Positions 12,425 to 24,547 of a DNA stretch of 64,000 nt are shown one piece after another (position 1 is the first letter of the stretch; every line of letters starts with the position of its first letter). The notes below the pieces were generated by a model. The model saw nothing but the letters and a program-made list of their open reading frames with translations, had not been told where the DNA came from and searched no databases. The stretch is from assembly GCA_022652735.1 (NCBI GenBank), contig JALCRP010000003.1, forward strand, positions 62,001-126,000. The letters run 5' to 3'. The DNA comes from Faecalibacterium sp. (GTDB lineage: Bacteria; Bacillota; Clostridia; Oscillospirales; Ruminococcaceae). The translations under genes were made by a program, and so were the position numbers.

Positions 12425-12516
12425 AAGCAAACGAAGTTAAATAACTTTTGGAAACGAATTGACTGATTTCACACCCGTTTGACACCAAACACCGCAAGAA
12501 AAAGCCTTACAAAAAG

Positions 12517-12560
12517 CAAGAGCCAGAGGATTGTTAGATAGCAATCCTCTGGCTCTTGTT
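12517..12560 (+). terminator. Long perfect hairpin after lysS
   Basis: A 17-bp perfect stem (CAAGAGCCAGAGGATTG and complement) has an 8-nt loop. The tail is only TTGGTTTGG. It is a probable terminator for lysS and may act on both strands. Confidence 0.65.
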
Positions 12561-12683
12561 GGTTTGGGCCGTTACAAAGCCTTTTGTCGATGCATTTTTA
12601 ATGGCGATAAGGGCATTTATTGCCAAAGATAGTGGCTGACTAGCATCCTATATGACCCCCATAAGGTAAAGTTCTCTCGTTGT

Positions 12684-15604: not shown

Positions 15605-17146
15605 ATGGCTAACGAATATCTATTGGAAATGAACCACATTTCAAAGTCGTTTGGCCGCGTTCAGGCGTTATCGGACGGCAACCTTCGGGTACGCCGCGGT
15701 ACGGTGCATGCCCTAATGGGCGAAAACGGCGCGGGCAAATCCACTTTGATGAAATGTCTGTTCGGCATTTACCACAAGGATGCCGGGGAGATTCTTCTGG
15801 ATGGCGCCAGCGTGGCGTTTTCTGATTCATCCGATGCGCTGGCGCATAACGTGGCGATGGTGCATCAGGAGCTGAATCAGGTGTTGTTCCAGAATGTCAT
15901 GGAGAACGTGTGGCTCGGGCGATACCCCTTAAAGCATGGCCTGATTGACGAAGCCGCCATGTATCGCCAGACGAAAGAAATCTTCGACCGTTTGGATATT
16001 GAGGTAGACCCGCGCGCTAAAGTAGGCACATTGCAGGTTGCACAAAAGCCCTATTGGGTGATGGAGCAGCAGGCCGGCGCCTGTGGCTGGAGCAAGATGG
16101 GCCCGACGCCAACGCCCGGCAAACTGCGCCTTTGGACGTATGACGCCGTGGCAAACGGTGCGGACACCGTGGTGTATTTCCGCTGGCGCACGGCGCTGTT
16201 CGGGCTGGAGCAATACTGGCACGGCATCCTCGACCATGATGGCAAGCCCGGCCGCCGCTATCAGGAGATTGCGCAGATCGGCGCCGAGATGGAGCATTTG
16301 AGCCAAACCTATAAGGCCCTGATGCCGCATAGCAAGGTTGCTATCCTGAAATCTTTCGACAGCGAGTGGAGCCATTCCATTCATCGCCATGTAGAGGGTT
16401 TTCAGTACGACCGTTACCAGCTGGATTTCTACCGTGCCTTTTATAAGCTGGGCATCTCTGTCGATTTTGTTTCTCCCGACGAGCAGCTTTCGGGCTATGA
16501 TCTCGTGCTGGCTCCGGCATTTTTGCTGGTTTCCAACAAGCAAAAGGATAACCTTGCCAACTACGCCCGCAACGGCGGTACCTTGCTGCTTACGCTGCGC
16601 AGCGGCATCAAGGATGAATACAATGCGATGCTGCCGCAGGCTGCGCCCGGCGTATTTTCGGAAATGGCGGGTGTCGTGACCGAAGATTATGACCCGCAGA
16701 TGGAAAAGCAGACGGACGTTTCCGGCGTGTTTGGCAAAAGCACGGCTACGCTTTGGTGCGATATTTTGAAGCCCACCTCTGCCAAGCCGCTGGGCGTATA
16801 TCTCGGCGATTTTTATGCGGGCAAGCCTTGCATGACTGTCAACGATTACGGCGAAGGGCACGTGTATTATCTCGGCTGTGACCTCGGCGAAACCGCGATG
16901 GAAAAACTGGCACGCTATCTGGCCGGGCAGGTGGGCCTGCCGCTGCCGCTGTACAGTATCCCCGGCGTAGAGATCGTCCACGCCGACGATGGCGCGATTT
17001 CGGCTATGTTTGTGTTGAACCATAACAGCTATCCGGTGCTGTTGCCGCTGGGGAAAAACTATCAGGAGATGATTGATGACAGCCCGGCTTCGCGTACGCT
17101 AAAACTCGAAGCCTATGGGGTTGCTATCCTAAAGCCTGCCCCCTAA
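15605..17146 (+). CDS. Chimeric ORF: N-terminal sugar-ABC ATPase (MglA/RbsA) joined to C-terminal GH42 beta-galactosidase
   Basis: A 513-residue ORF made of two unrelated parts. Residues 1-147 are the front of a sugar-type ABC ATPase with Walker [10 protein letters not shown] (39-47) and a Q-loop (MVHQELN). They stop at the start of the ABC signature (GTLQVAQ). From about residue 148 (base 16046) the sequence becomes a GH42 beta-galactosidase, starting at the strand with the nucleophile (WVMEQQ, E154 by family alignment) and running through the trimerisation and C-terminal domains. Missing are Walker B, the second ATPase half, a permease and the first half of GH42 with its acid/base Glu, so neither activity is expected. 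The join keeps the frame. It may be a real deletion of at least 3 kb or an assembly collapse. Confidence 0.85.
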
Positions 17147-17391: not shown

Positions 17392-18699
17392 TTATTGCGC
17401 AAAGGCCTGCTGGAGATCGGCGAGAATATCCTCGATGTTTTCCAGCCCGATCGAAAGGCGTATCGTGTTGGGGTAAATCCCTTGTTCGCGCTGCTCGGCG
17501 GCGCTCAGCTCGGAATGTGTCGTGCTGGCGGGGTGGATTACAAGGCTCTTGGCATCGGCCACGTTGGCCAGCAGGCTGAACAGCTGCAGCTTGTCAATAA
17601 AAGCCTGCGCTTGTTTTTCGCCGCCGCGGATGCGGAAGGTGAAGATGCTGCCCGCGCCCTTCGGGAAATAGGTTTGATACAGGCGCCGCTGCTCGGGGTC
17701 GGTGCTGACGCTGGGGTGGCTGATGCTTTCTACCTGCGGCACCGTCTTCAGGTAATCGATCACTTTTAGGGTGTTTTCTACGTGGCGGTCTACGCGCAGC
17801 GAAAGCGTCTCCAGCCCTTGCAGGAAAATCCAGCTGCTAAAGGGCGAAAGCGTTGCGCCGGTATCGCGCAGCAGGATGGCGCGGATGCGCGTTACAAATG
17901 CGGCCGGGCCGGCGGCCTGCACAAAGCTGATGCCGTGATAGCTGGGGTTGGGCTGCGTCAGCTGGGGAAACTTTTCGGGATAAGCGGCCCAGTCAAAGGT
18001 GCCGCCGTCTACGATTGCGCCGCCAATGGTGGTGCCGTGGCCGCCGATAAACTTTGTGGCCGATTCCACAACAATATCCGCGCCGTGCTCGATGGGGCGG
18101 ATCAAATAGGGCGTACCGAAAGTGTTGTCGATGATAAGGGGCACACCATGCTTATGCGCGATGGCGGCAATGCCGTCAATATCCGTCACTTCGCTGTTGG
18201 GGTTGCCCAGCGTTTCAATGTAAATGGCCTTGGTGTTGGGGCGGATCGCTGCTTCAAAATTTTCGACTTTCAGCGGCTCTACAAAGGTGGTTTCCACGCC
18301 GTAATCCACGAGCGTATGCGCCAACAGATTGTAGGTGCCGCCGTAGATGTTTTGCGCCGCCACGATATGGTCGCCCTTAAGGGCCACGTTTTCGATGGCG
18401 TAGGTGACGGCCGCCGCGCCAGAAGCAACGGCTAAGCCGGCAACGCCGCCCTCCAAATCTGCGATGCGCTGTTCAAATACGTCTTCGGTGGGGTTGGTCA
18501 GGCGGCCATAGATGTTGCCGGCATCCCGCAAGGCGAAGCGGTCGGCCGCATGCTGGCTGTTGCGGAATACAAACGAGGAAGTTTGATAAATAGGGACGGC
18601 GCGGGAATCGGTGGTATGGTCGTAATCTTCTTGGCCGATATGAAGCTGGCGCGTTTCAAATTTCCAGGCGCTGCGGGTTTCTTTCGTAATTTGTGCCAT
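17392..18699 (-). CDS. metY: O-acetylhomoserine sulfhydrylase (Cys/Met PLP enzyme)
   Basis: A 435-residue PLP enzyme of the Cys/Met metabolism family. The SATKFIGGHGTTIGG motif places the PLP lysine at K216. The length and the insert after it (GGTFDWAAYPEKFPQ) are typical of O-acetylhomoserine sulfhydrylases, which make homocysteine from O-acetylhomoserine and sulfide. AAGAGG lies before the ATG. It is the last gene of the minus-strand sulfur cluster but has its own 290-bp leader after a terminator, so it is probably a separate unit. Cystathionine gamma-synthase/lyase activity is a less likely alternative. Confidence 0.88.
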   Translation of the reverse strand: MAQITKETRSAWKFETRQLHIGQEDYDHTTDSRAVPIYQTSSFVFRNSQHAADRFALRDAGNIYGRLTNPTEDVFEQRIADLEGGVAGLAVASGAAAVTYAIENVALKGDHIVAAQNIYGGTYNLLAHTLVDYGVETTFVEPLKVENFEAAIRPNTKAIYIETLGNPNSEVTDIDGIAAIAHKHGVPLIIDNTFGTPYLIRPIEHGADIVVESATKFIGGHGTTIGGAIVDGGTFDWAAYPEKFPQLTQPNPSYHGISFVQAAGPAAFVTRIRAILLRDTGATLSPFSSWIFLQGLETLSLRVDRHVENTLKVIDYLKTVPQVESISHPSVSTDPEQRRLYQTYFPKGAGSIFTFRIRGGEKQAQAFIDKLQLFSLLANVADAKSLVIHPASTTHSELSAAEQREQGIYPNTIRLSIGLENIEDILADLQQAFAQ

Positions 18700-18988: not shown

Positions 18989-20137
18989 TCAATATTCCTC
19001 GAGAAAGTGGTGGGTCTTGCCGCCTTTGCGATAGGAGATCACCGTGTCGAGATTGACATTTTCCATGCTTTTGAACAGATTGCTTTCTACCTGCGGGTTA
19101 TCCTGCTTCATGCGCCGGATCAAATTTTTGATTTCCAGCCGTTTCGAGCTGGTCGTTCCGTCGGTATGGCAGGTGGTGCAGCTATCCGTGAATTTGCAGG
19201 CGCACTGGATAAAGTGCAGATGATGATAATCCCGCCAGCGCTTGATGTCGTCCTCCCGTATCAGGTAAAGGGGGCGAATCAATTCCATGCCGGCAAAATT
19301 TTGGCTGTGAAGCTTGGGCATCATGGTGCGCACCTCGGCGCCGTAAAGCATGCTCATCAGCGTGGTTTCAATCACATCGTCATAATGATGCCCCAGCGCA
19401 ATTTTGTTGCAGCCCAGTTGCTGCGCCTGATGGTATAAATGGCCGCGGCGCATCCGGGCACAGAGATAGCAGGGGGATTTTTCCACGTGAAAAACAGATT
19501 CAAAAATGTCTGTTTCAAATATTTGGATGGGAACCCCCAGCAGCTTGGCGTTGCTTTCAATCACAGCCCGGTTCACCGGGCTATAACCGGGGTCCATGAC
19601 AAGAAATACCAGCTCAAACGGAAACTTGTTGTGCCGCTTCAGCTCCTGAAACAGTTTTGCCATCAGCATGGAATCCTTACCGCCGGAAATGCACACCGCA
19701 ATTTTGTCGCCCGGCTCCACCAGATTATAGCGGCAAACCGCCTGCGCAAACGGCGTGAAAAGCTCCTTGTGAAATTTCCGGCGGAGGCTTTCCTCTATTT
19801 TATCGCGCCGTTCGGTATCTTCGGCTTCGTGCGCAAGCTCCCTGCGCAGCCATTGTGCATAGCCGCCCTTTAAGCTGTATGCGCATACGCCTTTGCTGCA
19901 TAAATGGTCTGCTGCCTCTTTGCTCAACACGCCCCACATGCAAAAGCAGATAACGGTTTTCCCGGCGGGAAGCGTGACGGCATCGGCCAAAATCGTATCC
20001 CGATCGAGACAAACGGCGCCCGGAAGCGAGCCGTGCTGATATGCGATTTCATCGCGCACATCCACCAATATGATCGAAGCGGGATCACGCGCCGACACTT
20101 CTTCCCACGTGATTTCAGGTGCTTCTTGTTTTGGCAT
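18989..20137 (-). CDS. Rhodanese domain fused to TtcA-like PP-loop tRNA thiolase
   Basis: A 382-residue two-domain protein. Residues 1-100 form a rhodanese domain (ILVDVRDEIAYQHGSLPGA) with active loop CMWGVLS, persulfide cysteine C66. The rest is an N-type PP-loop ATPase with SGGKDS (151-156), CxxC at C223/C226 and a later Cys cluster near 312-323, the pattern of TtcA-type tRNA 2-thiocytidine synthetases that hold an Fe-S cluster. The fused rhodanese probably hands over sulfane sulfur. The start ATG 20137 overlaps the stop of the upstream LysR gene (TGATG) and has GGAGG 10 bases before it, so the two are coupled. The exact substrate is uncertain; tRNA or a small thio-compound are both possible. 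Confidence 0.8.
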   Translation of the reverse strand: MPKQEAPEITWEEVSARDPASIILVDVRDEIAYQHGSLPGAVCLDRDTILADAVTLPAGKTVICFCMWGVLSKEAADHLCSKGVCAYSLKGGYAQWLRRELAHEAEDTERRDKIEESLRRKFHKELFTPFAQAVCRYNLVEPGDKIAVCISGGKDSMLMAKLFQELKRHNKFPFELVFLVMDPGYSPVNRAVIESNAKLLGVPIQIFETDIFESVFHVEKSPCYLCARMRRGHLYHQAQQLGCNKIALGHHYDDVIETTLMSMLYGAEVRTMMPKLHSQNFAGMELIRPLYLIREDDIKRWRDYHHLHFIQCACKFTDSCTTCHTDGTTSSKRLEIKNLIRRMKQDNPQVESNLFKSMENVNLDTVISYRKGGKTHHFLEEY

Positions 20138-21063
20138 CACAGCGCGCCTCCTTCCGGCAAAATGTGTACGTTGCATTTTTGCAGTTCTTCCAGATAGATT
20201 TCGCCCAGCTTGCTCAGTATGCTGCCCTGCCGGCGGATATAGCCGATGTGCATAATTTTATCCGATTGCAGCGGGATGACTCGGTAATCGGTGCCGTTCA
20301 AATCTTCGCACAAAATTCCGCTGCACAGGGTATAGCCGTTTAGGCCGATCATCAAATTCAGCAGCGTGGCACGGTCGCTCGCCTTGATAACCTGCCGATA
20401 GTGCCAGGTGCTGTACACTTCCTCCGCGAGATAAAAAGATTGATTTTCGCCCTGATCGAAGCAAAGGCAGGGATAAGGCTGCAAATCCTCCAGCGAAAGG
20501 CTTGCCCGGCGCGCAAGCGGATGCGCCGCCGCCAAAAACACGTAGGTTTTGCAGGGGAAAAGCTCGGTAAAAGTCAAGCCGTTATCCGCAAAAAGCCGCT
20601 GTAAGATTTCTTCGTTGAAATCATCTACATATAAAACGCCCAACTCGCTTTTATAGCTGCGGACATTCTCGATGATCTCGCCGGTTTTGCATTCGTAGAT
20701 GCCGAAGGCGTACTGCTCGGGCTGAAACCGGCGCGCCATCTCAATAAAGGCTTTGACGGCAAAGGTATAGTGCTGTGCGGAAACGCTAAAGCTTTTCTTG
20801 CTCTCTTTTTTCAGGATGAACTTTTCTTCGGTCAGGCGGTATTGGTTTACGATCTGCCGCGCGTAGATCAAAAACTCGCTGCCTTCCGGCGTAACGCTTA
20901 CGCCCCGGTTGGTGCGGCGGAACAACGAAAAGCCAAGTTCCTTTTCCAAGTTCAGGATACTGGCCGAAAGGCTGGACTGCGATAAAAACAGGGCCTGCGC
21001 CGCTTTGTTCATCGAGGCCGTTTCGGCGATTGTAACGGCATAGGTCAGCTGTTGTAAAGTCAT
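20137..21063 (-). CDS. LysR-family regulator of the sulfur/cystine cluster
   Basis: A 308-residue LysR-type regulator with N-terminal HTH (ASMNKAAQALFLSQSSLSASI, then KELGFSLFRRTNRG) and a substrate-binding-like effector domain. ATG 21063 has AAGGAGCC upstream. Gene order (cystine-type ABC transporter, LysR, rhodanese/PP-loop, MetY) suggests a CysB/CysL-like role, sensing cysteine, O-acetylserine or a related compound. Its promoter (TTGCCA-N17-TATACT) is followed at about +3 by CCTAC-N7-GTAGG, a palindrome that also occurs at the same place in the transporter promoter. Confidence 0.8.
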   Translation of the reverse strand: MTLQQLTYAVTIAETASMNKAAQALFLSQSSLSASILNLEKELGFSLFRRTNRGVSVTPEGSEFLIYARQIVNQYRLTEEKFILKKESKKSFSVSAQHYTFAVKAFIEMARRFQPEQYAFGIYECKTGEIIENVRSYKSELGVLYVDDFNEEILQRLFADNGLTFTELFPCKTYVFLAAAHPLARRASLSLEDLQPYPCLCFDQGENQSFYLAEEVYSTWHYRQVIKASDRATLLNLMIGLNGYTLCSGILCEDLNGTDYRVIPLQSDKIMHIGYIRRQGSILSKLGEIYLEELQKCNVHILPEGGAL

Positions 21064-21118
21064 ATCGGCTCCTTCGGTTTTTGCGCGGCTGCAGGCGAAA
21101 TGCCGCAACACGGAATTC

Positions 21119-21233: not shown

Positions 21234-22154
21234 TTATTCCACTACGCCGCCCTCGACAACCAGAGAATCCGGGTCGGCGGCTTGCCCATAAACGGGCGCC
21301 AGCGTTTCGGTATAGTCGGCATGGAAGAAGTTTTCCTTGCCAAGCGCCACGATCTCGGCATTCAGCCAATCCAGCAGGGTGCTGTTGCCCTTGGTTACGG
21401 CGGGCGCGATGGTGTCCAGATCGCCCAGAGAATCGATGCCAACCGTGAACCCGGGGTTTGCAATCGCCCAAGCAAGCACTTCGGTGTTGTCGGTGGAGAA
21501 GGCGTCGCCGCGGCCGTCCAGCAGGGCGTTGTAGGCATCCGCGTACTGATCGTATTTTTGCAGGGTCACGTTGGGGTAATTCTTTTCAAAATAAGTTTCA
21601 GCCGTGGTGCCCTTGGCCACGATCAGCGTTTTGCCGTCCAACTCGCTTACATCCTGAATCACGGCGCTGTCGGGCGAGACAACGCCCAGCGCAACCTTCA
21701 TGTAGGGCAGCGCAAAATCTACTTTTTCGGCGCGCTCTTCGGTTACGGTAAAGTTGGCCAGAACAATATCCACCTTACCGGTTTCCAAAAACTCTACTCG
21801 GCTGGCGGGGTCGAGAGAAACATATTCCACTTCTGCGCCCAGATCTTTTCCGATCCGATCCGCAAAATAGACATCGTAGCCCTGGTAGGCGCCGTTTTCA
21901 TCCACATAGCCAAAGGGCGCTTTGTCGCTGAATACGCCAATCGTGATTTTGCCGCTGGATTGGATCTCGTCCAAAGTGCGGAAGCTGCCCGCCGCGGCGC
22001 TGCCTGCTGCGGCAGAAGAACCTGTGGCCGTGCTGTCGGCGCTGCTTTGCGCGGCGGAAGCGGCGGCCGCTGCACCGCAGCCTGTCAAAGAAGTGCCCAA
22101 AGTCAAGGCGGCGCTTAACACCGCTGCTTTCCGAATAAATTCTCTGCGTTTCAT
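21234..22154 (-). CDS. Polar amino-acid (probably cystine) ABC transporter binding lipoprotein
   Basis: A 306-residue family-3 solute-binding protein. The signal has RREF and a lipobox LTGC with C26, then an Ala/Ser-rich linker. The mature domain carries the typical DKAPFGYVDENGAYQGYDV and LDPASRVEFLETGKVDIVLANFTVTEERA segments. The substrate cannot be read directly. Cystine or cysteine is inferred from the Cys-run leader peptide in front of the operon and the sulfur genes behind it. It follows the ATPase gene by 36 bp with AAAGAGGGA as ribosome site. Confidence 0.85.
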   Translation of the reverse strand: MKRREFIRKAAVLSAALTLGTSLTGCGAAAAASAAQSSADSTATGSSAAAGSAAAGSFRTLDEIQSSGKITIGVFSDKAPFGYVDENGAYQGYDVYFADRIGKDLGAEVEYVSLDPASRVEFLETGKVDIVLANFTVTEERAEKVDFALPYMKVALGVVSPDSAVIQDVSELDGKTLIVAKGTTAETYFEKNYPNVTLQKYDQYADAYNALLDGRGDAFSTDNTEVLAWAIANPGFTVGIDSLGDLDTIAPAVTKGNSTLLDWLNAEIVALGKENFFHADYTETLAPVYGQAADPDSLVVEGGVVE

Positions 22155-22190: not shown

Positions 22191-22967
22191 TTATATGACG
22201 ACCGAGTTTTCCTCGGTGGCGCGCTTGGTAAACGTTAAGGTATGCAAAAACTCCTGTGCCCGCTGGGTTTGTGGCGCGGTAAAAAATGATTCCGGCGTGG
22301 CCTGCTCTACAATCTTTCCGCCGTCCAGAAAAAGCACACGGTCGGCGATGGCGCGGGCAAACGGCATCTCGTGGGTGACAATTAGCATCGTCAAGCCCTG
22401 TTCGGCAAGCTCCAGCATCACGTCCAGCACTTCCCGCACCATTTCCGGGTCGAGCGCGGCAGTCACTTCATCAAACAGCATAACCTCGGGATGCATGCAC
22501 AGAGCGCGCACAATGGCAACGCGCTGCTTTTGCCCGCCGGAAAGCTGTCGCGGATAGGCGTTTCGCTTTTCCCACAGGCCGACGCGCTTAAGCAAGGTTT
22601 CTGCTTCGGCTTCTGCCTCGGCCTTTGTGCGGTGCTGCACCTTCATCGGCGCCAAAGTAACGTTGCTCAAAATAGTTTTGTGCGGGAAAAGATCGTAGCT
22701 TTGAAACACCATGCCAATTTTTTGCCGTATGCGCGTCATGTTTTTGGCGCCCGCCGCAATCGGCTCGCCGTCCAGCTCGATTTGCCCGGCATCCATGATT
22801 TCCAACCCGTTCAGGCAGCGCAGGAGGGTGCTTTTACCGCAGCCCGAAGGCCCTACAATCACCACAACTTCGCCGCGATGCACTTCCAGATCAATGCCGT
22901 CCAATACGGTTTCGCCGCCGAAACGCTTTGTCAGCCCGGCGGCCTTTAGCTGAATCTCCTGTTCCAT
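22191..22967 (-). CDS. Polar amino-acid ABC transporter ATP-binding protein
   Basis: A 258-residue ATPase of the GlnQ/TcyN type: Walker [11 protein letters not shown]-loop [10 protein letters not shown], signature [15 protein letters not shown] and Walker [16 protein letters not shown] 22967 has AAGGAG upstream and lies 4 bases after the stop of the permease gene. The frame runs further upstream, but that part overlaps the permease. It energises import with the two permeases encoded before it. Confidence 0.93.
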
Positions 22968-22971
22968 TGCG

Positions 22972-23652
22972 TCAGGCTCCTTTCCAGTTGCGTTCCAGCC
23001 GTTTTGCCGCCAGCGAAATCGGCCAGCAAACGAGGAAGTAAAGCAAAAACACTGTGCCGTACACCCAAAGCGCCGCCGTGGGATAGGCAAAGCGGTTGGC
23101 GTCGATCACCTGCTGGCCGACCTTTAGCACTTCCACAATGCCGATCAACACCACCAAGCTCGTGGTTTTAATGATGCGCGTCGTCAGGTTGATGGCCGGC
23201 GGCAGCAAATGCCGCAGCGTCTGGGGCAAAATTACGTACCAAAAGGTTTGCAGCGGAGACATCCCCAGCGCCTCGGCGCTTTCATACTGGTGCTTTGGGA
23301 TGCTGATAAGCGCCCCGCGCACCAAATCGCCCATTTCCGCCGTGCCCCATAAAGTAAATACAAGAACGGCGCTGGCCCATGCGGAAAGATTTAGCCCAAA
23401 GGCTCGCGTTACGCCGAAATACACCAAAAACAGCAGCACCAGCTGGGGCATGATGCGGATGAAATCTAGGTACAAGCGGCTGATGGCTTTTGCAAGGGGA
23501 TGTGGCACCATCATAAAAAGCCCGAACGCAACCCCCAGCGGGAGCGAAAGCGCAACGGAAAGTAGGCTGATACGCACCGTCACCCAAAGCCCGCCCAACA
23601 GGCGCAAAAAGTTGCTGCCCTCGAACAGGACATTAATTCCCAAAGCCTGCAT
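22972..23652 (-). CDS. Polar amino-acid ABC transporter permease
   Basis: A 226-residue His/Glu/Gln/Arg-type (HisMQ) permease with about five membrane segments. The EAA loop ([39 protein letters not shown] region) contacts the ATPase. Its start overlaps the other permease gene by 20 bp, with GGAGGC upstream of ATG 23652. The two permeases probably form a heterodimer. Confidence 0.92.
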
Positions 23653-24295
23653 GACGAAGCCTCCTTTCCAAAAATGCGGCGAGAACCGAAATGGGCAAAA
23701 GCAATATCAGATAAGCGGCTACCAGCATGCCCAGCGCCTCATCCGTCTTGTAGTAAAGCCCGATCAAATCTTTCGCCACATACATCAGATCGGCCAGCGC
23801 GATGGCGCTGACAACCGAGGTTTCTTTAATAAGAAAGATTACATTGGCGCACAGCGCCGGGATACTGACGGCCAGCGCCTGCGGGAAAACAATGTAACAC
23901 AAGCTCTGCGCCGGCGAAAAGCCAAGGCTTTGGGCGGCTTCGCGCTGGCTTTTTTCCACGGCTTCCAGCCCGCTGCGAAACGCCTCCGCCATATAGCTGC
24001 CGCCTAAAAAGGTAAGCCCTAAAATGGCGCAGCCTTCCGCGGAAATGCGGATGCCCAACTTCGGCAGGCCAAAATAAAGAAAAAATAGCTGCACCAGCAG
24101 CGGCGTGTTGCGGCTTAGCTCGATGTAAAGCGCCGTTATCTGCCGCAAGCCCGGGATGTGTGCATACTGGATGAAGCTGCACACGGCCCCCAACAGCAGG
24201 GCAAAACAAATGCCCCAAAAGGCGATCCGTGCCGTCAGCCCGGCAGCCTGCACGTACATCGGCGCATAGCTTGCTATAAAACCCCAATCCGGCAA
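23633..24295 (-). CDS. Polar amino-acid ABC transporter permease
   Basis: A HisMQ-family permease of 220 residues, with an EAA loop (AEAFRSGLEAVEKSQREAAQSLGFSPAQSL region) and about five membrane segments. No ATG is available. TTG at 24295 is preferred because GGAGG lies 6 bases before it; TTG at 24301 would sit only one base from the same GGAGG. It is the first structural gene after the Cys-rich leader ORF and hairpin, so it is the one directly exposed to the proposed attenuator. Confidence 0.9.
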   Translation of the reverse strand: MPDWGFIASYAPMYVQAAGLTARIAFWGICFALLLGAVCSFIQYAHIPGLRQITALYIELSRNTPLLVQLFFLYFGLPKLGIRISAEGCAILGLTFLGGSYMAEAFRSGLEAVEKSQREAAQSLGFSPAQSLCYIVFPQALAVSIPALCANVIFLIKETSVVSAIALADLMYVAKDLIGLYYKTDEALGMLVAAYLILLLPISVLAAFLERRLRHAGFGN

Positions 24296-24318
24296 ATTCA
24301 ATCCTCCTATCCAAACCC

Positions 24319-24358
24319 AAAAGGGAGCAGGACCGCATACGCGCTCCCGCTCCCTTTT
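24319..24358 (-). terminator. Leader hairpin (candidate attenuator) of the cystine ABC operon
   Basis: Reading the minus strand, AAAAGGGAGC pairs with GCTCCCTTTT (10 bp) with further GG/CC pairs inside. The tail is TTTTGGGTTTGG, so the U run is interrupted. It lies 18 bp behind the stop of the Cys-rich leader ORF and 24 bp before the first permease. Confidence 0.6.
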
Positions 24359-24376
24359 GCCATCCGCAAAACGGTG

Positions 24377-24466
24377 CTAAGGCAAACTGCACGCATGACG
24401 AATCCCTGCCGCAGGCATCTGCATACAGCGACAGCACATCATCCCGCGGACAATGGAATACTGCAT
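24377..24466 (-). CDS. Cysteine-rich leader peptide (29 aa)
   Basis: A short ORF in the 5' leader of the ABC transporter operon encodes 29 residues. Codons 9-14 read MMCCRC, with a fourth Cys at residue 26, giving four cysteines and five methionines in all. The ribosome site GAGGAGGAA lies 6 bases before ATG 24466, better than that of the following permease. It is preceded by a sigma-A promoter and followed by a GC hairpin. The layout matches transcription attenuators in which ribosomes stall at codons of the end-product amino acid. Cysteine control through Cys-run upstream ORFs is known in mycobacteria; I do not recall this particular peptide. Function is inferred. Confidence 0.7.
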   Translation of the reverse strand: MQYSIVRGMMCCRCMQMPAAGIRHACSLP

Positions 24467-24493
24467 GGTGCGTTCCTCCTCAAAACCTCTATT

Positions 24494-24547
24494 CCTACTA
24501 TGTAAGTAGGTTGATAACAAGATAACACGCCAAACCCAGCATGTCAA
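24494..24547 (-). promoter_or_regulatory. Promoter of the cystine ABC operon with downstream palindrome
   Basis: On the minus strand TTGACA (24542-24547) and TATCTT (24519-24524) are 17 bp apart. Eight bases after the -10 comes CCTAC-N7-GTAGG (24494-24510). The leader-peptide start follows at 24466. Confidence 0.75.

Follow-up and report, generated by a model that had tools for sequence, protein, structure and literature searches.

Attenuators of the trp, his and leu type place a leader ORF with codons for the end product, competing hairpins and a terminator before the first gene. In Firmicutes, most amino-acid gene control of this sort is exerted by T-boxes. Leader peptides with cysteine codons have been described in other bacteria: the mycobacterial poly-cysteine short ORFs are leaderless according to the title of the report (Canestrari 2020, cited in PMC13236596), and the accessible part of PMC1262725 predicts Actinobacterial cysteine leaders with Cys codons near the stop, for which it found no terminator hairpin. 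In Rhodobacterales, uORFC-8-2 precedes cysS and combines tandem Cys codons with a terminator, and ribosome-mediated attenuation was proposed for it (PMC8632094, accessible part). Histidine leader peptides before hisS and hisZ in bacilli were proposed to act by attenuation in place of T-boxes, and the same excerpt states, as of 2010, that no leader-peptide system was previously known outside Proteobacteria and Actinobacteria (PMC2965389).

We compared with these systems a locus in a window of 64,000 nucleotides (the whole stretch of DNA that was analysed) from a relative of the gut bacterium Gemmiger. The first-pass annotation had placed a promoter, a strong ribosome site and a 29-codon ORF with an MMCCRC run upstream of an importer on the minus strand, and all of these were confirmed. 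The sigma-70-type promoter TTGACA-N17-TATCTT (24519-24547, minus strand) resembles a block before orthologous operons, since TTGACAT-NN-T(G/A)GG is repeated upstream of all six same-genus orthologues; as a class, promoter-like matches at the window leader were not above chance (13 found, 10.4 expected). A Shine-Dalgarno sequence, GAGGAGG (24475-24481, minus strand), precedes the leader peptide ORF MQYSIVRGMMCCRCMQMPAAGIRHACSLP, which has 29 codons and a stop (24377-24466, minus strand; ATG at 24466, stop at 24379-24377). The MMCCRC run occupies codons 9-14, with Cys at codons 11, 12 and 14 and a further Cys at codon 26. The Cys-Cys-Arg-Cys run of codons 11-14 (24425-24436, minus strand), which is kept in the closest relative found, is the proposed stall site. 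The peptide matched no NCBIfam or Pfam family up to E 0.1.

The locus resembles the classical attenuators in its leader ORF with end-product codons, in its predicted competing hairpins and in its terminator-like hairpin, and differs from them in the amino acid (cysteine), in the genes (an importer and sulfur-transfer genes) and in the host (Clostridia). With the mycobacterial and Actinobacterial leaders, as described in the accessible text, it shares a Cys run in a short ORF upstream of cysteine operons. Unlike the mycobacterial leaderless ORFs, as titled, it has a ribosome site, an early Cys run (codons 11-14 of 29) and a hairpin, and 52 nt separate the end of its putative -10 box from the ATG, which is unlike a leaderless start. 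Compared by its description, uORFC-8-2 is similar in its tandem Cys codons and, as far as the window hairpin is terminator-like, in its terminator, but it belongs to another phylum and, in that description, to cysS only, whereas the genes concerned here are importers, metY and metQ-like and mccB-like/cysK genes. The histidine leaders of bacilli, as excerpted, are also a case of leader-peptide attenuation proposed in Firmicutes, but they differ in the amino acid (histidine), in their tRNA-synthetase-type genes and in their class, Bacilli. T-box riboswitches share the role in amino-acid genes of Firmicutes but are absent from the window leader and the related loci examined. No T-box motif was found in the 450 nt upstream of 114 loci, and no Rfam T-box or riboswitch family (e.g. 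SAM) matched the whole window, leader included, at the gathering cut-off; up to E 1, no Rfam family matched in 20 loci (18 of the 19 loci of the covariance model R1 described below, the window's and the closest relative's). The same genome gave nine T-box matches at E up to 1, four of them over the cut-off.

A terminator-like hairpin lies at 24318-24359 (minus strand), starts 17-18 nt past the leader stop and has as many as 18 pairs, including 11 G-C pairs. A 10-bp GC hairpin with an interrupted U-run had been annotated here; its presence, its distance from the stop and the interruption (UUUU GGG UUU) were borne out, but the stem is longer than was claimed. The piece 24359-24318 folds with about -35 kcal/mol, and the 226-nt leader folds better than its shuffles (z -4.0, 0 of 200). 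The hairpin is missing from the list of the terminator scan, which requires 5 T in 8. Two segments of the leader are predicted to form an antiterminator: GUCAUGCGUGC, the proposed 5' arm (24389-24399, minus strand), and GCGCGUAUGC, the proposed 3' arm (24335-24344, minus strand), which lies within the 5' arm and loop of the terminator.

We consider it highly probable, judging from the sequence, that this element is a cysteine-sensing, ribosome-mediated transcription attenuator before a cysteine-type ABC importer operon. This agrees with the leader-peptide attenuation proposed in the first-pass annotation, which the kept Cys run and the co-occurrence of leader and hairpin among relatives support. 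When charged tRNA-Cys is scarce, the ribosome would stall at Cys codons 11-12 of the leader; the stall would free 24399-24389 for pairing with 24344-24335, in the terminator's 5' arm and loop, so that the terminator could not form and the importer would be transcribed. When cysteine is plentiful, the ribosome would run on and cover 24399-24389, and the hairpin 24359-24318 would end transcription. We infer that the leader is translated, that ribosomes stall on it and that transcription terminates, as well as the exact form of the window antiterminator.

The competing structures were folded with the ribosome masked: the A site was set at successive codons, the ribosome footprint was masked and antiterminator pairs were counted. 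With footprint 17/12, the expected number of antiterminator pairs was 8.6 for a ribosome at codon 11 or 12, 0.14 when no ribosome was placed and 0 at codon 23 and beyond. With two further footprints the values at codons 11 and 12 were 5.8-9.0, but the smallest (14 nt behind, 9 ahead) gave only 2.2 and 0.3, respectively. At the third Cys (codon 14), 0.01 pairs were obtained under all four footprints, and codons 4, 7, 8 and 16-19 scored as high as codons 11-12. The same masking in the closest relative (L169, below) did not free the segment and did not reproduce the window's switch, and a Cys-rich leader of the same genus (L028) showed no clear antiterminator. The folding check suggested by the first-pass annotation thus predicts a switch in the window, but one that depends on the footprint and was not reproduced in L169; the window antiterminator is a footprint-dependent prediction, and a switch there is plausible.

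Downstream of the leader, all on the minus strand, lie genes for an amino-acid ABC importer permease 1 (longest ORF 23633-24301, family matches), permease 2 (22972-23652, NCBIfam/Pfam), an ABC ATPase (longest ORF 22191-23090) and a substrate-binding protein (21234-22154). The true start of the ATPase is probably further in than its longest ORF, because the family match begins at residue 52. By NCBIfam, the operon proteins fall among polar amino-acid importers, below every listed equivalog cut-off. The closest PDB sequences to the binding protein are 1XT8 (8e-79) and 2YJP (3e-77), with the third match at 1e-34. According to the accessible parts of the respective reports, 1XT8 is a cysteine-binding protein of Campylobacter jejuni (PMC4757695) and 2YJP is the L-cysteine receptor NGO2014 of Neisseria gonorrhoeae (PMC7170509). 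Because these best matches are L-cysteine receptors, the operon is likely, on sequence likeness, to take up cysteine. The first-pass annotation had proposed cystine import; the likeness is to cysteine-type receptors, and it does not settle cysteine against cystine.

The sulfur-related genes that had been annotated behind the importer are also present on the minus strand: a LysR-type regulator (longest ORF 20137-21111, NCBIfam/Pfam), a rhodanese and PP-loop (TtcA-like) protein (18989-20176, NCBIfam/Pfam) and a metY-type O-acetylhomoserine/serine sulfhydrylase (17392-18699, family match). The last of these does not appear to belong to the same transcript, since it lies behind a strong terminator (18985-18942) and is probably transcribed separately. 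No Cys-run leader of its own was found before the window metY. A short ORF upstream of it, MKIVHFTKIQWQKKPRKRMCQARM (18843-18770, minus strand), contains one Cys and a repeated GCGAATGTG. Elsewhere in the window, an N-terminal portion of an ABC ATPase (residues 23-139) is fused with the final portion of a GH42 beta-galactosidase (145-510) in one frame on the plus strand (15605-17146), which is either a deletion chimera or an assembly fault.

A search of 31 genomes of the same genus yielded six permease 1 orthologues with 60-61% identity. Four of them (L028, L030, L031 and L032) carry a different leader, MMCCCAMCCC(T/S)ANASRTG..., with its own hairpin and T-run; the other two (L029 and L033) lack both leader and hairpin and retain the promoter block. 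The family search matched 18 of 396 genomes, the window's own included, and a Cys leader was present at five of the 17 other family loci (L057, L060, L061, L062 and L074), while two more, L063 and L064, had no leader ORF and no hairpin. Orthologues without the ORF, which the first-pass annotation had named as a point against its reading, are thus found in four cases, and all four also lack the hairpin. In the order, 17 of 394 genomes matched, and six of the ten new loci read had a Cys leader (L164-L167, L169 and L172), the partial L174 being left out. Among the best 80 of 561 confirmed matches in a scan of named genomes, two Gemmiger formicilis strains had leaders (L084 and L087). Strain ATCC 27749 (L087) has about 290 bases more between leader and permease than strain MCC627 (L084), and its leader's hairpin and T-run are kept despite the extra bases. 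Where MetY comes first, the leader lies upstream of MetY (L086, L093, L121, L102, L111, L136 and L143); where the binding protein comes first, it lies upstream of that gene (L124, L129, L112, L140, L141 and L147); and L091 and L157, in which the permeases also come after MetY or the binding protein, likewise have a leader. Within the stretch examined, many of the 114 loci had none.

The closest relative found was L169 from genome G633, which belongs to another family of the same order. Its permease is 81% identical and its leader reads MSKLVRKMMCCRCMSMDTALVCHACISS. Two synonymous changes fall inside the CCRC run, the kept stretch being ATGATGTG(C/T)TGTCG(C/T)TGTATG, and much of the rest differs; CATGCGTGCA and AAAAGGGAG are both retained. 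No further leader of the window type was found in the family of G633, where L169 was the one case in 87 genomes at the same threshold. In other genera, the leader peptides are quite different, with Cys runs present. The alignment of orthologous leaders proposed in the first-pass annotation shows a Cys run that persists while much else drifts. A search of 41 genomes with the 29-residue peptide returned 25 further places at E 0.048 or worse, and these were rejected because none was leader-like. Within the window's own genome, no Cys leader was found upstream of cysS, and a short ORF containing CC, without a T-run hairpin, preceded one of three cysK-family genes. This ORF, MKSYTFLPNSRRCCTKVRGGRKAAA (L194), lies about 147 nt before cysK and has two Cys; the 30 places read in the genus yielded a single vaguely similar case, L202.

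The alternative that survives best is that the Cys leader senses cysteine but the hairpin is an inefficient intrinsic terminator, so that stalling acts through Rho-dependent termination or mRNA stability. The interrupted U-run and the absence of the hairpin from the terminator scan are in its favor, as are the similarly broken tail of the L169 hairpin (UUUGCUGUUUUU, broken like the window's) and the Actinobacterial cysteine leaders without terminator hairpins, for which the accessible part of PMC1262725 proposed Rho. However, the window hairpin is very stable and ends in UUUU, and several relatives have a hairpin with a long T-run at the same place. We regard this explanation as improbable.

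It is considerably less probable still that the leader controls translation of the permease, either through sequestration of its ribosome site or through coupling and re-initiation, which the first-pass annotation had offered as an alternative. The weak U-run would fit such control, as would the lack of any permease start other than TTG close to its ribosome site; the likelier start is the in-frame TTG at 24295, 7 nt after AGGAGG (24308-24303). The hairpin, however, ends at 24318 and does not include that ribosome site; the likely permease start follows the leader stop at a distance of about 80 nt; and terminator-like hairpins are seen in relatives. Because the permease ribosome site lies outside the hairpin, transcription termination is better supported than translational control.

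A related RNA class, class B, was defined from seventeen leaders, which mostly share UGUUGUCGAAUG, then CUCCCGGGCA, AUGGC, and GCCAUUUGCCCGGGAG before the terminator. In these leaders, the antiterminator formed by pairing of two halves was 93.3% complete, compared with at most 49.4% for slid versions, and a hairpin that competes for the first antiterminator half had 11 double-change cells where shuffles gave 4.0. The pair count of the class-B terminator did not exceed that of shuffles (80.7% and 80.2%; slid versions at most 61.3%). We built a covariance model, R1, from the 17 leaders and gave it the antiterminator as structure. When R1 was run on the window and on the best 80 of 561 named loci, it matched 26 loci at E<=0.001, all on the importer strand: 11 had served to build the model, another, L133, is identical in sequence to L062, itself among those used, and 14 were new (L084, L087, L096, L102, L111, L112, L119, L136, L140, L141, L143, L147, L157 and L159; L157 is identical to L147). 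These 14 and the weak match L103 all had in-frame Cys codons at the expected place, although in some the Cys content was minimal, with a single Cys in the core of L159 and Met-Cys-Met in L140. In L146 and L096, the R1 element lies downstream of the importer permease. A second R1 search of 51 sources gave 50 matches with 47 distinct sequences, in which 92.9% of antiterminator cells were paired (slid controls, at most 49.5%), 10 of 15 pairs had changes on both sides, and double-change cells numbered 27 against 6.0 in shuffles; this alignment was fitted to R1 and so leans towards the structure, but the margin over the controls is wide. The conservation of the class-B antiterminator is thus supported by covariation, and it is in this related class only that sequence comparison revealed a conserved antiterminator. 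R1 matched neither the window (E up to 1) nor the window's own genome (strict filters).

Masked folding of seven class-B leaders gave a more uniform picture than in the window. In L061, L114, L093, L121 and L124, no fewer than 86% of the antiterminator pairs persisted across the entire Cys run under all four footprints; the same held for L060 and L104 with the smallest footprint, and the other footprints lost the last one or two Cys there. In all seven, the antiterminator was at half or less within four codons past the Cys run. In the same folding, the class-B antiterminator was also the default without a ribosome, in which the class differs from the classical attenuators, and it re-formed after the ribosome had passed. 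Because the antiterminator forms without a ribosome and returns after passage, the class-B switch must depend on timing: a ribosome held up at the Cys codons would leave it open, and a moving one would cover it while the terminator is being synthesized. On this modelling, a stalled-ribosome switch in class B is well supported. Met codons crowd the Cys run in class-B leaders and in codons 9-17 of the window (MMCCRCMQM, MMCMRM and MMCCDMCCEMHM), as if methionine were sensed too.

These leaders also bear on the possibility that the window ORF encodes a functional small Cys-rich protein, such as a metal-binding peptide, and no regulator. The ORF is well formed and its ribosome site is strong, but the peptide is poorly conserved outside the Cys run, a two-base deletion in class B changes the reading frame but leaves the RNA motif intact (L114 compared with L061), and the leaders L178 and L129 stop right after the Cys run, making such a protein a very remote prospect.

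The genes behind class-B leaders were examined by searching R1 against 391 genomes of the class Clostridia, which gave 19 matches in 13 genomes at E<=0.01 (strict filters). An importer permease followed in two, both from genomes that had given model sequences; MetY followed in three, MetQ-like lipoproteins in six (L183 among these) and MetN-MetI in one. Four preceded a cystathionine gamma-lyase-like (mccB-like) gene and then the start of a cysteine synthase, one a cystathionine gamma-lyase-like gene and then a PatB-type lyase, and one a partial cysK together with a gene resembling glutamate-cysteine ligase. The remaining match, L187 (E 0.007), was rejected as probably due to chance. Ten proteins from six R1 loci were scanned: MetY (TIGR01326) and MetI passed the curated cut-off, and the remainder are best matches below it, some of them fragments at locus ends, such as the cysK ORF of L177, which spans just the last third of the family. 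Other R1 loci were assigned by likeness of their translations. At L096 (10250-10391), a class-B RNA lies upstream of a LanC-like gene; LanC-like proteins are linked to lanthionine peptides, which are made from cysteine. The 12.6-kb locus L146 has two Cys leaders (2373-2510 and 12479-12633), the first of which, a weak R1 match (E 0.008), stands before a long binding-protein-like gene and metN/metI-looking genes.

We also asked how often such leaders arise by chance, using 109 distinct 450-nt upstream regions (five of the 114 loci were dropped as duplicate or too short). At least three Cys in six codons with a ribosome site occurred in 16 of the 109 regions on the sense strand and in none on the antisense strand, and 60 shuffles gave a mean of 0.50 and a maximum of 2; the 16 include the window and three near-identical same-genus leaders, and because kinship among the genomes makes the regions non-independent, the true number of events is lower than these counts. 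At least two Cys in three codons gave 25 sense, one antisense and 3.4 shuffled cases (maximum 11) in the same 109 regions. The 93 regions below the three-Cys criterion include some with the leader further up or with fewer Cys. A hairpin with a T-run within 170 nt was present at 19 of 28 leader loci, the window included, and at 9 of 81 leaderless loci (odds ratio 16.9, p 2e-8, kinship uncorrected). Here leader loci were those with at least two Cys in three codons or on a typed list of model matches, and the hairpin rule was looser than that of the terminator scan; nine leader loci nevertheless fail it, among them L057, in which a hairpin with seven T is visible by eye. Leader and hairpin thus tend to go together across relatives, and it is by sequence comparison that this co-occurrence, like the leader, the Cys run, the hairpin and the sulfur context, was established. 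In peptides simulated at the Cys frequency of 11 neighboring genes (55 of 3496 residues), three Cys in four codons appeared in about 0.027% of 28-codon peptides. A loose scan of both window strands found six Cys-rich short ORFs with some ribosome-site-like motif, of which the leader alone has GGAGG; among the remaining five, two lie inside permease 1 (24204) and inside the ORF 15605-17146 (16554). That six short ORFs satisfy the loose criterion could suggest a chance Cys-rich intergenic ORF beside an unrelated hairpin, but the antisense and shuffle controls, the synonymous changes in the run kept by L169 and the hairpin co-occurrence make this scarcely credible.

A search by title and the start of the abstract found no published case of cysteine leaders in Firmicutes, Clostridia, Lachnospiraceae or gut bacteria; it covered the subscription literature thinly, and novelty is unproven. 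The accessible part of PMC7903761, on small proteins of gut communities, has nothing relevant on leader peptides, cysteine or attenuation. On evenly balanced evidence, the cysteine-sensing attenuator of the window may belong, as one branch, to a mobile and widespread set of attenuators for sulfur amino acids in Clostridia, which would serve at the level of the regulon as an alternative to Cys T-boxes and repressors. In this set, the end of the Cys run would fall no more than a few codons from the last stall position that leaves the antiterminator open, and Met codons (MMCCRCM, MMCMRM) would add methionine sensing. If true, the covariance model would offer a handle for annotation, and the set would allow a simple test of ribosome position setting an RNA switch. 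It would also name the signal for a sulfur gene set in bacteria such as Gemmiger formicilis, and would cover importers, metY and metQ-like, metNI-like and mccB-like/cysK genes in many Clostridia.
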